Position numbers and translations under genes: made by a program. This document shows positions 2,782 to 7,423 of a stretch of DNA of 7,423 nt, in pieces (position 1 is the first letter of the stretch; the number at the start of each line of letters is the position of its first letter). This DNA is from an uncultured Sphingomonadales bacterium (lineage in GTDB: Bacteria > Pseudomonadota > Alphaproteobacteria > Sphingomonadales > Sphingomonadaceae): the NCBI GenBank assembly GCA_903868655.1, contig CAIPWG010000205.1, positions 1-7,423 on the forward strand. The letters run 5' to 3'. The notes beneath the pieces are model-generated. The model did no database searches. It was not told the origin of the DNA and worked only from the letters and a program-made list of their open reading frames with translations.

Positions 2782-4125
2782 ATGCCCAAGACCGCAATGA
2801 TCACAAGAATTCTCCTCGCTGCTGCGGCATTGGTCGCCCTGCCCACTGCAACCCCGGCGGCCGAAGCAGCGTCCGAAAAACTGGCGATCGACGCAGTGAT
2901 TGATCAGAACCAGGCCGATCTCGACGCGCTCTACATCGATCTGCATAGTCATCCGGAACTCGGCTTTCACGAGCTTCGCACCAGTGCACTGCTCGCAGCC
3001 CGTATGCGCAAGCTGGGCTTCACCGTAACCGAACATGTTGGCAAAACCGGGGTTGTTGCGGTCATGCACAATGGCGACGGGCCCGTGGTCATGGTTCGCA
3101 CCGAACTCGACGCCCTGCCAATGGAAGAACTCACAGGCCTGGCCTATGCCAGCCGCGCCACTGCCACGCGCGAGGATGGCACGACGACATTCGTCGCGCA
3201 TTCGTGCGGCCACGACAATCATATGGCAGCATGGCTCGGCACTGCCACCGCGCTGGTCGCGCTTAAAGACCGCTGGCATGGTACGCTGGTGTTTGTCGGG
3301 CAGCCCGCAGAGGAAGAAGTCTCGGGCGCCAAGGCCATGCTGGCGGACGGACTGTTCACGCGGTTTCCAAAACCCGATTTCGGTTTCGCGGCGCATGTCG
3401 ACAACGCCTTGGCCGGCACCGTTCACGTCAAGCAAGGGCCAACGACTTCAGCGGTCGATACAATCCTGATCACGTTCAAGGGCGTTGGCGCGCATGGATC
3501 AATGCCCGACAAAGGCATCGATCCCATTGTTGAAGCCGCGCATTTCGTGACCGACGTGCAAAGCGTGATTGCGCGCGAAAAGGACCCGTGGAAATTCGGC
3601 GTCGTGACTGTCGGCGCGTTCCATGCCGGATCGGTATCCAATATCATCTCTGACCATGCCGAATTGCAGCTGACGCTACGGTCGTATGATCCCGATGTGC
3701 GCCGGATATTGAACGAAGGGGTCGAACGCACCGCGCGGGCCGCTGCCGATATTGCGCACGCACCAGCACCCGACATCCGGCACAGTTTCAGCGCCAATCC
3801 GGTGGTCAACGATCCCGCCATAGCCGCCAGCACTGCGGCGCGCCTGACCGATGCGCTGGGCCAGTCGCGCGTGACGCTCGTGCCCGAATCCGGCCCGGGC
3901 TGGACTGCAAGCGAGGATTATTCCGAATATGTCAGCGCTGGCCTCATCCGATCAGTGTATTTTTCGATCGGCGGCACCCCGCAAACGGTGATTGACCGCC
4001 ACAAAGCGCAAGGCAAACCGCTGCCCGTCAATCATTCACCGCTGTTTGCCCCTGATCATACCATTGCGATCCGCACTGCGATTGAAGTCCAAACGATTGC
4101 CGTGCTGAGCGTGACAGGGCGGTAA
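2782..4125 (+). CDS. Exported M20D-type metallo-amidohydrolase
   Basis: A 447-residue M20 peptidase/amidohydrolase of the aminoacylase-like M20D group (hippurate, IAA-amino-acid and N-acyl-amino-acid hydrolases). An N-terminal signal peptide (basic start, hydrophobic run at about 8-20, likely cleavage after an Ala near 27-30) predicts a periplasmic or secreted enzyme. Family motifs follow: HSHPELGFHE (55-64), RTELDALPMEE (106-116), HSCGHDNH (140-147), QPAEEE (174-179), AAHVDN (203-208), AHGSMPDKGIDP (237-248) in the lid/dimerisation domain, and NHSPLF (417-422). By family comparison the two-metal ligands are probably C142, H144, E178, H205 and H418, with E177 as the general base; all are present, so it should be active. 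It presumably hydrolyses an amide or N-acyl bond, but the substrate cannot be read from sequence. ATG 2782 is chosen because GGAAAA (2769-2774) precedes it and it keeps the full signal peptide; ATG 2797 lacks a ribosome site. It converges on the synthetase gene, so it is not in that operon. Confidence 0.92.
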   Translation: MPKTAMITRILLAAAALVALPTATPAAEAASEKLAIDAVIDQNQADLDALYIDLHSHPELGFHELRTSALLAARMRKLGFTVTEHVGKTGVVAVMHNGDGPVVMVRTELDALPMEELTGLAYASRATATREDGTTTFVAHSCGHDNHMAAWLGTATALVALKDRWHGTLVFVGQPAEEEVSGAKAMLADGLFTRFPKPDFGFAAHVDNALAGTVHVKQGPTTSAVDTILITFKGVGAHGSMPDKGIDPIVEAAHFVTDVQSVIAREKDPWKFGVVTVGAFHAGSVSNIISDHAELQLTLRSYDPDVRRILNEGVERTARAAADIAHAPAPDIRHSFSANPVVNDPAIAASTAARLTDALGQSRVTLVPESGPGWTASEDYSEYVSAGLIRSVYFSIGGTPQTVIDRHKAQGKPLPVNHSPLFAPDHTIAIRTAIEVQTIAVLSVTGR

Positions 4126-4214: not shown

Positions 4215-7200
4215 CTAAGTCTCGACGCGGATCAGAGCCTTTTCAATAGCAGCCGCCAACTTTGTCGCGTGGCTTGCTTCGAGGAAATCGAGGTGGTTGT
4301 CGAACAAGGGGTGAATGTGCACGCCTCCCATGGCGTAGTGCCTCCACAAAGGCGCGATCCGGTTGCTTTCTTTTCGCGGCGAGAACACATCAACGGCCAC
4401 CGGCAATCGGGGCGGGCGATGGCTCCGCAACAGCACCACGAACGGATCAAAGCGCGGCAGCACGTTTCCAGGTTGCGCTGATTTCACGCCCCCAGTGATC
4501 GGCGTGCGCACGTCACTGAAACGCACGACAATCCTCAATTTCCTGAAAATGCGGTCAAGCTGCCTGCCAAAGCCGCCCGGAAGAAGACGCAAGCGAACTT
4601 TCAGGTCGATCAGCGGTCCAATGCGGGTGTCGAGAATGGCGATAAGTCCAAGTGTCGCCCCCTTCTCATGCAACGCTGCCGCAACGGCGTGGGCATACCA
4701 ACCACCAATGGAGTACCCCATTAGATTGATCGGCCCGCCCCGTGAATGCGCGATGATATGATCGGCATAAAGTGATGCAAGTTCCGAGACCGTGCGGGGC
4801 TTTGCATTGTCATCACCCTTGGGCGCTGCTTCCAGTGCATAGACGGCGCGGCGCGGTCCGATGGCTTCCGCAAAATGGCGGAATGTCAGAAGCCCACCAC
4901 CAAATCCATGGATCAAATAGAGCGGTGCTGCCTCACCCTCGGGTTGCAGAGTTACGATATTGCTCTGTCGTTTGCAGTCGTTCGGCAAACGTGCGGATGG
5001 ATCAGGGGCCGTTCCGTGTGCCTTCGCCCGGCGAATGCCACCTAACGATGGGTCCGCCAGGAACGCCCCGACCGGCAGATGAAGTCCCGCCTCTTTCTCC
5101 AGGCGCATCAGCAACTCGATCGCGGCCAGCGAGTCACCGCCAAGGGTCCAGAAGCTCTCGTCTTCGCCCGCATCGGTGCTGGCCGGCAGGCAGGCTTGCC
5201 AAATTGCGCGCAAAGGGTCGGTTTCAGCCACAAAGCCTGCCGCTTGCGTGCGGGTGGCCATGTCCAACTCGACCAGCGCTCGCCGATCTATTTTGCCGGC
5301 ACTTGTATAGGGCAGGGCATCGTGGACCCGCAATTCGCGCGGAACGAGGGCCGCTGGCAGCTGATCCTTCAACCGTTGGCGCAAGTCAGCGACACGCGCC
5401 GCCGACGCTTCGACACCTGGCCTCGGCGCCACATGGGCGATAATCCCGGTTATCTGTTCCCCCACCTGCAAGGGCAGGCAAATGGCATCAGCAACCATGG
5501 GGTCAGCTTTCAGCACAGCCTCAATCTCACCGGGTTCAACCCGGATGCCCATTACTTGTACCTGATCATCGACACGACCACGGAATTCGTAATCACCGTG
5601 CAAGTCGATGCGGGCCAAGTCGCCCGTGCGATAGGTGCGCTCACCCTCGCGGATCGGAAACTTTTCCTCGGTCAGGTCCGGCCTTCCCCGGTAACCCAGC
5701 GCAAGCTGGGCACCGCCAAGGACCAACTCGCCGGTATCGCCGGCTCGCACGATCTTGCCATTTTCATCGACAATCTGCGCGGTCACGCCCCGAATCGGCT
5801 TGCCAATTGTCGGTCGCCCCCCTGCCGGACCCACGTATCCCCATAAACTGTCGACAGTATTCTCGGTCGGTCCGTACGTGTTGATAACTTTGAAGGAAAG
5901 CCCCGGAGGCGGCCGATGGTGGAGTGCGCTGCCGCCTGTCAAAAGCGTCTTGAGTTCCATGCGCTCTGGCCAGGCAATACCAAAAAGTCGTTCCGCCACG
6001 GCTGTGGGAACGAACGTGCAAGTTGCGGATGCATCGCGCAACCATCCGATCAATGCTGCTGGATCAAGCAGAATGTCGTTTGGCGGAATGAGCAACACAC
6101 CGCCAGCCGCAAGAATTGGCCAGATGTCGCCGACCGATGCATCGAAGGTGGGATGTGCGAGCGCCGTCATACGATCGCCCGGCCCCATCGAAAGTGCCTC
6201 GTGATAATGCGCCACCAGGTTTGCAAGGGACGCGTGTGATATTTCCACCGCCTTGGGTCGTCCGGTCGAACCCGATGTGAATATCCTATAGGCGCATTGT
6301 CCTGGCGCAATCTCGGGCAGCCGAACCGGGTCTGCATCCCCGATGCTGGTTGGACTGATAAAGACAATGCCCGGAATGCCTGACGGGCGGAGACCGTCAA
6401 TCGGTTCCCCGATGATATGCGTAACGCCAGCCTCGGCAATTTCGAACGCCAGCCGTTTCGGAGGTGACGATGGATTAAGCGGCACATAGGCGCCGCCCGC
6501 CATCATAGTCCCGAGCGCACCAGCCACGAAATCGGACTCCATCGGCAGCAGCAGCCCGACACCGGCATCCCGGCGCAAACCCAAGGTCTGAAGTTTTGCC
6601 GCGAAACCATTGGCGCGCGCCAAAAGGTCCTTGCGCGAAACGGGCAACCTCTCTCCCAGGATCGCCGGCATGTGTGGACCTGCTGTGGCAAGTGCCGTAA
6701 TCGCTTGGCTAACCGTTGGCAAAGCATCTGGCTGGGCCAGTACATTCACCTCTGCCTTGGCCGACCCGATGCCCGGCGGCGGAATTTCGAAATCACGAAG
6801 CTGCAGCCGCACAGCACCATCGCTGCACGCAATCGTCAAAGACGAACCATCAACATTCAAGATGGTCCCGGGCACCCCCGCTGCTTTCGCTGATGTTGCA
6901 GAACGAACCACCTGGATACTGCCATCAGGAAGTGCGACACGCGCTTCGCCAAAGCTGTTTGCAGATGAACCCCAGTCGCAGGCGCGCACAAGGCGGAGGA
7001 TTTTTGTTTGATCCCATTGCCAGTCAATCATGCCCCCGTTCGGTGCGGTATCAGATCGTCCGAAATAGCTTCGATTGCTGAAGTCCTGAGGAGCGCCTGC
7101 CAGGGCGCCGCGCTCAAGCCTGGCCAAAACCTCTGGAAAGCTGGCCAAGGCAGCTTCTGAGCAGCGCATATTGAGCGACCCCGTGGTCTCGCCTGTCGTC

Positions 7201-7423
7201 AGGGCAAAACGCCGTTGCTCAAGAATTGCACCAGTATCAATGCCGGGCGCCATCAGGTGCCAGGTTATCCCGTGTAAGGGTTCGCCGTTCAGGATTGCCC
7301 ATGGCGTTGCCCAGCGGCCGGCATATGCGGGCAACGGACCATTGTGATAATTGATGGCAGCGATCTTTGGCCGGGCAAGCGTTTCCGCATCAAGAATACG
7401 GCCGTTGGCGATGCTGATGATCG
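4215..7423 (-). CDS. Single-module formylating NRPS-like enzyme: formyltransferase-adenylation-carrier-thioesterase (5' end outside window)
   Basis: The frame is open to the right edge: 1068 residues are visible and the start is missing. Residues here count from the codon at 7421. Residues 1-120 are the rest of a formyltransferase core (INYHNGPLPAYAG; N24, H26 and D62 fit the N-H-D catalytic set, with the same 38-residue N-to-D spacing as E. coli methionyl-tRNA formyltransferase), and 130-212 resemble its C-terminal domain. The adenylation domain (about 235-720) carries FTSGSTGRPK (381-390), FDAS (426-429), NTYGPTEN (514-521), YRTGDL (597-602), GRVDDQVQVMGIRVEPGEIE (615-634) and Lys710 in SAGKIDR. 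The carrier protein has LGGDSLAAIEL with Ser764 for phosphopantetheine. The type I thioesterase has GYSIGG (Ser904), Asp931 and His1043. No condensation or epimerisation domain is visible. By analogy with the linear gramicidin initiation module, it should activate an amino acid, formylate it on the carrier using formyl-tetrahydrofolate, and release it through the thioesterase. The product is inferred. Confidence 0.9.
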   Translation of the reverse strand, partial: IISIANGRILDAETLARPKIAAINYHNGPLPAYAGRWATPWAILNGEPLHGITWHLMAPGIDTGAILEQRRFALTTGETTGSLNMRCSEAALASFPEVLARLERGALAGAPQDFSNRSYFGRSDTAPNGGMIDWQWDQTKILRLVRACDWGSSANSFGEARVALPDGSIQVVRSATSAKAAGVPGTILNVDGSSLTIACSDGAVRLQLRDFEIPPPGIGSAKAEVNVLAQPDALPTVSQAITALATAGPHMPAILGERLPVSRKDLLARANGFAAKLQTLGLRRDAGVGLLLPMESDFVAGALGTMMAGGAYVPLNPSSPPKRLAFEIAEAGVTHIIGEPIDGLRPSGIPGIVFISPTSIGDADPVRLPEIAPGQCAYRIFTSGSTGRPKAVEISHASLANLVAHYHEALSMGPGDRMTALAHPTFDASVGDIWPILAAGGVLLIPPNDILLDPAALIGWLRDASATCTFVPTAVAERLFGIAWPERMELKTLLTGGSALHHRPPPGLSFKVINTYGPTENTVDSLWGYVGPAGGRPTIGKPIRGVTAQIVDENGKIVRAGDTGELVLGGAQLALGYRGRPDLTEEKFPIREGERTYRTGDLARIDLHGDYEFRGRVDDQVQVMGIRVEPGEIEAVLKADPMVADAICLPLQVGEQITGIIAHVAPRPGVEASAARVADLRQRLKDQLPAALVPRELRVHDALPYTSAGKIDRRALVELDMATRTQAAGFVAETDPLRAIWQACLPASTDAGEDESFWTLGGDSLAAIELLMRLEKEAGLHLPVGAFLADPSLGGIRRAKAHGTAPDPSARLPNDCKRQSNIVTLQPEGEAAPLYLIHGFGGGLLTFRHFAEAIGPRRAVYALEAAPKGDDNAKPRTVSELASLYADHIIAHSRGGPINLMGYSIGGWYAHAVAAALHEKGATLGLIAILDTRIGPLIDLKVRLRLLPGGFGRQLDRIFRKLRIVVRFSDVRTPITGGVKSAQPGNVLPRFDPFVVLLRSHRPPRLPVAVDVFSPRKESNRIAPLWRHYAMGGVHIHPLFDNHLDFLEASHATKLAAAIEKALIRVET

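Follow-up and report, generated by a model that had tools for sequence, protein, structure and literature searches.

A formyltransferase-adenylation-carrier-thioesterase chain without a condensation domain in an uncultured Sphingomonadales bacterium

A 2022 review (PMC8949500) reports formylation domains for three nonribosomal peptides and places them always in the initiation module; according to a second source (PMC4504003), such a domain also opens the hybrid assembly lines of conglobatin, oxazolomycin and rhizopodin. Here we analyse a gene on the window, which is an entire 7423-base contig (C205) from the draft genome of an uncultured Sphingomonadales bacterium (G000; a 2.93 Mb assembly of 654 contigs, with 85% completeness and 5% contamination). 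Its chain joins formyltransferase (F), adenylation (A), carrier (T) and thioesterase (TE) domains and has no condensation domain (C). An earlier note on this DNA had suspected that a one-enzyme route of this kind to a small metabolite might be undescribed, and the open-access literature searched gave no description of the architecture.

The initiation module of LgrA (linear gramicidin) is the best sequence match to the window chain in the PDB and is among its top structural matches. The two have in common the F-A-T order, the aligned active-site Asn, His and Asp of the formyltransferase and the core motifs of the A domain. However, a condensation domain follows T in LgrA where TE follows T in the window, and the F-to-A stretch of LgrA is ~80 residues shorter (83 versus 161 positions), which we read as the lack of a Formyl_trans_C subdomain. 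The CongA/OzmO-type formyl-glycine loaders of conglobatin and oxazolomycin are also F-A-T starters; CongA differs in the proposed handover of formyl-glycine to a polyketide synthase (PKS; PMC4504003). No PKS gene lies in the window; G000 was not searched for one. Two Streptomyces loci that may be of this type (L053, L063) have F-bearing open reading frames (ORFs) without a TE match, and their F-A inserts belong to the set of 68 aligned below. Their ten-residue A-domain codes, DILLLGLIWK and DILVLGLIWK, which we take to be Gly-like, differ from DAGTLGTVDK in the window.

In its A-T-TE half and TE fold, the chain resembles the C-A-T-TE termination modules of the EntF/SrfA-C type, from which it differs in having F in place of the catalytic condensation domain and in that no upstream partner was found. 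Enzymes resembling nonribosomal peptide synthetases with an A-T-TE order and no condensation domain also exist, for example the atromentin synthetases; these are like the window in one-module synthesis with TE release and have no formyltransferase. Judged by its sequence, the window gene is predicted to work as an F-A-T module of the LgrA type would if a release domain of the EntF type were fused to it.

Architecture of the formylating chain

The gene is a minus-strand frame of 1068 codons with no stop and with its motifs intact, open at the 5' end where it meets the contig edge. Measured against its nearest relative, P0001, ~73 N-terminal residues lie beyond that edge; the P0001 chain begins just before the formyltransferase and the extra 73 residues hold no further domain, and the window chain is therefore not expected to have any other part before F. 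The true N-terminus, which the earlier note had wished to see, is thus placed by comparison; on that side the contig ends at the window edge.

The same note's claim that the four domains lie in one chain, each with its catalytic residues, agrees with what was found. Pfam recognised all four domains (Table 1) and gave no Condensation match in the chain. N24, H26 and D62 (F), D601 and K710 (A), S764 (T), and S904 and H1043 (TE) are all eight invariant in a 14-row alignment (A1); these are the positions regarded as catalytic in the respective families. The chain has a formyltransferase with an N-H-D active site fused before A, as in LgrA-type formylating modules, together with A and T domains that match AMP-binding and PP-binding above the Pfam cut-offs; the A domain scored 304.8 bits against TIGR01733, slightly under its cut-off of 317.4. 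The TE has by sequence the Ser-Asp-His triad of type I thioesterases (PF00975), with the motifs GYSIGG, ILDT (holding the Asp) and DNH (holding the His). D931 sits where known TEs carry the acid, a position at which only eight of 36 tails have Asp (the window, P0001-P0005, P0007 and P0030).

No match to the condensation family (PF00668) was found anywhere in G000, nor in seven of 12 other genomes with related loci, including those of L021, L022 and L024. Handover to a downstream condensation domain, as in LgrA, thus has no counterpart here, since TE follows T and PF00668 has no match in the draft genome; by this test of a downstream acceptor the gene is not an initiation module. An HHxxxDG condensation domain of the kind that defines C-A-T-TE modules is absent from the window, and the long relatives described below hold only a motif-free C-terminal lobe. 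The accepting condensation domain, in the same chain or an adjacent gene, that the earlier note had said would refute its proposal was looked for and not found, save in the upstream flank of the window's gene, which lies beyond the contig.

Relatives and the half condensation domain

Of 7991 proteins scored as candidates, 3101 reached E <= 1e-50, many through the A domain, which places the gene far beyond chance; the best 120 were listed. Domain profiles for F, A, T and TE were built from 14 sequences of A1, and with these a single-A F-A-T-TE order in one chain was seen in 30 of 35 sequences (the window and its 34 best matches), one or more of the domains being unmatched in P0007, P0021, P0022, P0023 and P0027. 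Full-length relatives begin at F, and the window belongs to a supported clade with F-A-T-TE chains.

Across 84,980 species genomes, 559 stretches encode relatives, and 80 loci were kept, 24 of them with a single F-A-T-TE module. In 23 of these 24, the locus DNA examined has no further ORF with any of the four domains; L035 carries a second F-A-T-TE copy in tandem (8297-12721 and 12935-18592), with the A domain interrupted in the second. No convincing match to a condensation N-terminal lobe was found in the 24 loci, the shortest of which span just 5-7 kb. The other 53 of the 77 F-bearing ORFs in the 80 loci fall into two sets: 12 have TE along with additional domains, an interrupted A or a truncated start, and 41 are without a TE match, several of these being cut by contig ends. 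The F-A-T-TE architecture is real and recurrent, and the stand-alone module without a condensation domain that the earlier note had described is borne out.

Among the loci kept, the closest to the window (L021-L024) come from uncultured Caulobacteraceae, Sphingomonadales, Sinobacteraceae and Nitrosomonadales. A close copy of the gene was found in none of 60 relatives and none of 384 other genomes of the class. In the phylum, 85 of 398 genomes gave matches, mostly to the A domain alone, with no further close member; in the family of the Caulobacteraceae relative, five of 249 genomes were matched, and only that relative's own genome was close.

Many relatives carry a condensation C-terminal lobe without HHxxxDG between F and A, a feature new to this analysis. 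The inserts are roughly 170-300 residues long, and for an alignment of 68 of them the match to the condensation C-terminal lobe is 99.2%, versus 0.5% for the N-terminal lobe. HHxxxDG occurs in none of the 68, and there is no match to the profiles for F, A, T or TE. In two Pleurocapsa chains, Pfam matched PF00668 only from position 153-154 to 455, and the C-lobe profile was the only one to match, one insert at a time, those of L026, L028, L030, L031, L032, L035, L036, L038 and L061. The ~190-residue insert of the window's clade failed to match the C-lobe profile directly (0.2%) and matched a general insert profile (96.3%); it is read as a condensation C-lobe because an AlphaFold model of the L025 insert (pLDDT 79.1, pTM 0.71) matches condensation-type domains. 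The window itself has a short F-A linker only. On a 97-sequence tree, midpoint-rooted and with some weakly supported nodes, parsimony gives six changes between short and long forms, with 'long' at the root. A search by title and start of abstract for literature on truncated condensation domains gave nothing relevant. Apparently, F displaced a condensation domain's catalytic lobe, the C-lobe that remained was dispensable, and the window's lineage later lost it.

Chains of other kinds were also seen. L033, L037, L039, L048 and L067 have the order A-T-C(HHxxxDG)-F-halfC-A-T-TE (L067 starts inside the first A), and F lying mid-chain after a full condensation domain may there serve side-chain formylation; the A codes of L037, L039 and L048 are, we assume, Lys/Orn-like. 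L049 and L050 had been counted among the single-module loci (26, now 24) and were rejected because a condensation C-lobe precedes F at the contig edge; they resemble cut chains of this A-T-C-F-halfC-A-T-TE kind. L078-L100 (mostly Rhodobacteraceae) have F-A-T ORFs in which A is interrupted by roughly 300-420 residues, and in many of these loci a large T-TE ORF adjoins. A similar interrupted-A F-A-T chain at L149 (Caulobacteraceae) adjoins a PKS-like ORF and a divergent ORF resembling phosphopantetheinyl transferases (PPTases), both judged by eye.

Substrate, release and competing explanations

With code positions that we take from GrsA, the window's code falls in the pattern DA[AG]xLGTVD, present in 35 of 46 clade rows and, among the 106 rows that could be read, in none from outside the clade; the codes of other branches are presumably Cys-, Gly-, Ser-, Thr- or Lys-like. 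The clade pattern matches no assignable specificity, and a text search of open-access literature for five code strings gave no paper. The Asp at code position 331 may point to a substrate whose side chain is polar or basic.

We hold, with slightly better than even confidence, that the gene encodes a self-contained module predicted to make and release a small N-formyl-aminoacyl product from one chain. The A domain would load one amino acid onto its own carrier, F would formylate an amino group from formyl-tetrahydrofolate, and the chain's own TE would release the N-formyl-aminoacyl group as a small molecule. The simplest outcome would be hydrolysis to a free N-formyl amino acid, and the main alternative transfer to a small acceptor. 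Such a module could have arisen when F took the place of the condensation catalytic lobe and left the C-lobe behind, a remnant that the window's lineage would no longer carry.

Several points weigh against this reading. A free N-formyl acid would be a poor return for the ATP and carrier spent on it, a point in favour of a release step that exploits the thioester, and F could by analogy act on a side-chain amine, because it sits mid-chain in the five loci with a full condensation domain named above. Of the 46 clade rows, 11 depart from the code, partly as near variants, with P0028, P0032, P0058, P0113 and L025 diverging more than the other exceptions. The TE of the window's sub-clade is of a subtype different from that of other clade members (27% similarity over 121 residues to P0006, versus 49% for the full chain), and the mode of release may therefore vary between clade members. 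Among the clade's loci no conserved neighbour was found (Pfam was run on seven neighbours), and therefore no pathway supports the reading; of the homologs with the same domain order and the conserved neighbours that the earlier note had proposed to look for, the homologs appeared and the neighbours did not. PF00668 was matched in five of the 12 genomes with relatives, including those of L023 and L025, and the L023 match, weak and partial (35.7 bits in a 477-residue ORF), lies apparently on the same contig, ~14 kb from the gene. The genome of the window is 85% complete with 5% contamination, and its contig ends 5' of the gene. For the priming of T, G000 gave only a single PPTase match, a 157-residue ORF.

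In a rival reading, the TE would be an acyltransferase placing the N-formyl-aminoacyl group on a sugar (or lipid), the result being a decorated surface glycan and not a free metabolite. We consider this unlikely. Five Acidobacteria loci of the long form (L026, L028, L035, L036, L061) have a capsule-type cluster in common, in which Pfam, run on L026 only, recognised Poly_export, Wzz/GNVR, NeuB, UDP-GlcNAc 2-epimerase, cytidylyltransferase, Asn synthase and an ABC-2 exporter; at Bacteroidales L041, L042 and L044, glycosyltransferase-like genes lie upstream (by eye) and a PPTase-like gene downstream (Pfam on L041 only), and an LPG_synthase_TM gene lies downstream of clade member L025. An N-formyl-L-alanyl group is reported in the V. 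anguillarum O2 polysaccharide, in a passage that names no gene for it (PMC10059132), and the 12 of 130 papers listed on sugar N-formyl-alanyl groups gave no further lead. Against this, these glycan loci are only distantly related to the clade of the window and have other A-domain codes, and no glycan cluster was recognised beside L021-L025 (by eye, with Pfam on the seven neighbours) or in the window.

Uptake of the formyl-aminoacyl thioester by a condensation or ketosynthase domain encoded elsewhere, with a TE that edits or is vestigial, is quite improbable. Starter modules of F-A-T type are the documented use (PMC8949500, PMC4504003), and the 41 F-bearing ORFs without a TE match, some cut by contig ends, would fit it. 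However, PF00668 has no match in G000 and seven of the 12 other genomes (ketosynthases were not searched for), and the TE has kept its conserved serine and histidine. Type I TEs of such modules can also oligomerise or cyclise, as in EntF, and a small oligomer, lactone or lactam built by the TE from one or more formyl-aminoacyl units would accord with the match of the predicted model to EntF; a side chain bearing a nucleophile would also go well with the Asp at position 331 of the code. We regard this as decidedly improbable, as a formylated amine would be a poor nucleophile for chain growth and the sequence has no sign of cyclisation. That the gene is decayed or an assembly chimera, a thought prompted by 654 contigs, 5% contamination and the missing close copies in the 60 and 384 genomes, is very remote given its 1068 codons without a stop, its intact motifs, and full-length homologs with the same domain order from several collections and contigs.

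More tentatively, at somewhat less than even confidence, the self-contained module would represent a phylum-spanning class of formyl-aminoacyl synthetases that arose when F replaced the condensation catalytic lobe and whose product is a signal or a surface-sugar acyl group. In three Legionella and gammaproteobacterial single-module F-A-T-TE loci (L051, L077, L083), a PAS hybrid histidine kinase and a FadL/OmpP1-like outer-membrane protein adjoin in all three, the FadL-like neighbour at L077 scoring below the Pfam cut-off (Pfam was run on that gene and on L051 only). The neighbours of distant single-module relatives suggest that the product is attached to sugars or sensed as a small molecule, though not for the window itself. 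If the self-contained reading is true, a TE-ended version without a condensation domain occurs in many uncultured bacteria, and formylation modules also act alone; the gene would then be a one-gene, expressible target for learning what such modules make, and F in place of the condensation N-lobe a concrete route for their origin.

Feature coordinates and neighbouring genes

Table 1. Features of the F-A-T-TE gene, in window positions (E values from Pfam).
Feature	Position	Strand	Remarks
F-A-T-TE gene	4215..7421	-	5'-open, contig edge; stop codon 4215-4217
Formyltransferase catalytic subdomain, residues 5-99	7125..7409	-	Formyl_trans_N (E 9.5e-14), profile 87-181 of 181; first ~73 residues beyond contig
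F active site N24-x-H26 (NYH)	7344..7352	-	invariant 14/14; aligned to LgrA
F active-site D62	7236-7238	-	Asp matching N24-x-H26
Formyltransferase C-terminal subdomain, residues 129-207	6801..7037	-	Formyl_trans_C (E 1.4e-8)
Short F-A linker, residues 208-235	6717..6800	-	site of condensation C-lobe-like insert in 68 related-locus ORFs
Adenylation domain, residues 248-710	5292..6680	-	AMP-binding 248-577 (E 1.3e-57), AMP-binding_C 632-710; code DAGTLGTVDK
Carrier (T) domain, residues 737-796	5034..5213	-	PP-binding (E 7.3e-9); phosphopantetheine Ser764 at 5130-5132
Thioesterase domain, residues 833-1068	4218..4925	-	Thioesterase 833-932 (E 7.1e-15); Ser904 4710-4712, Asp931 4629-4631, His1043 4293-4295

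Convergent with the F-A-T-TE gene lies an M20 amidohydrolase (2782-4125, plus strand; TIGR01891) with a signal-peptide-like start, judged by eye, and a 76% identical copy in a same-genus genome. It was considered as a partner and rejected, as in L147 and L148 TonB-receptor-like genes (by eye) adjoin it and no F-A-T-TE match was found. The remaining plus-strand genes of the window encode a photolyase/cryptochrome FAD-domain protein (2-1303, cut at its 5' end) and an ABC1/UbiB-like kinase (1288-2613). Elsewhere in G000, contig C537 (L002) encodes another protein resembling nonribosomal peptide synthetases, in which A-T is followed by a hexapeptide-repeat-like region below the Pfam cut-off, with no condensation domain, and A-domain ORFs similar in length to this protein occur in several same-genus genomes.
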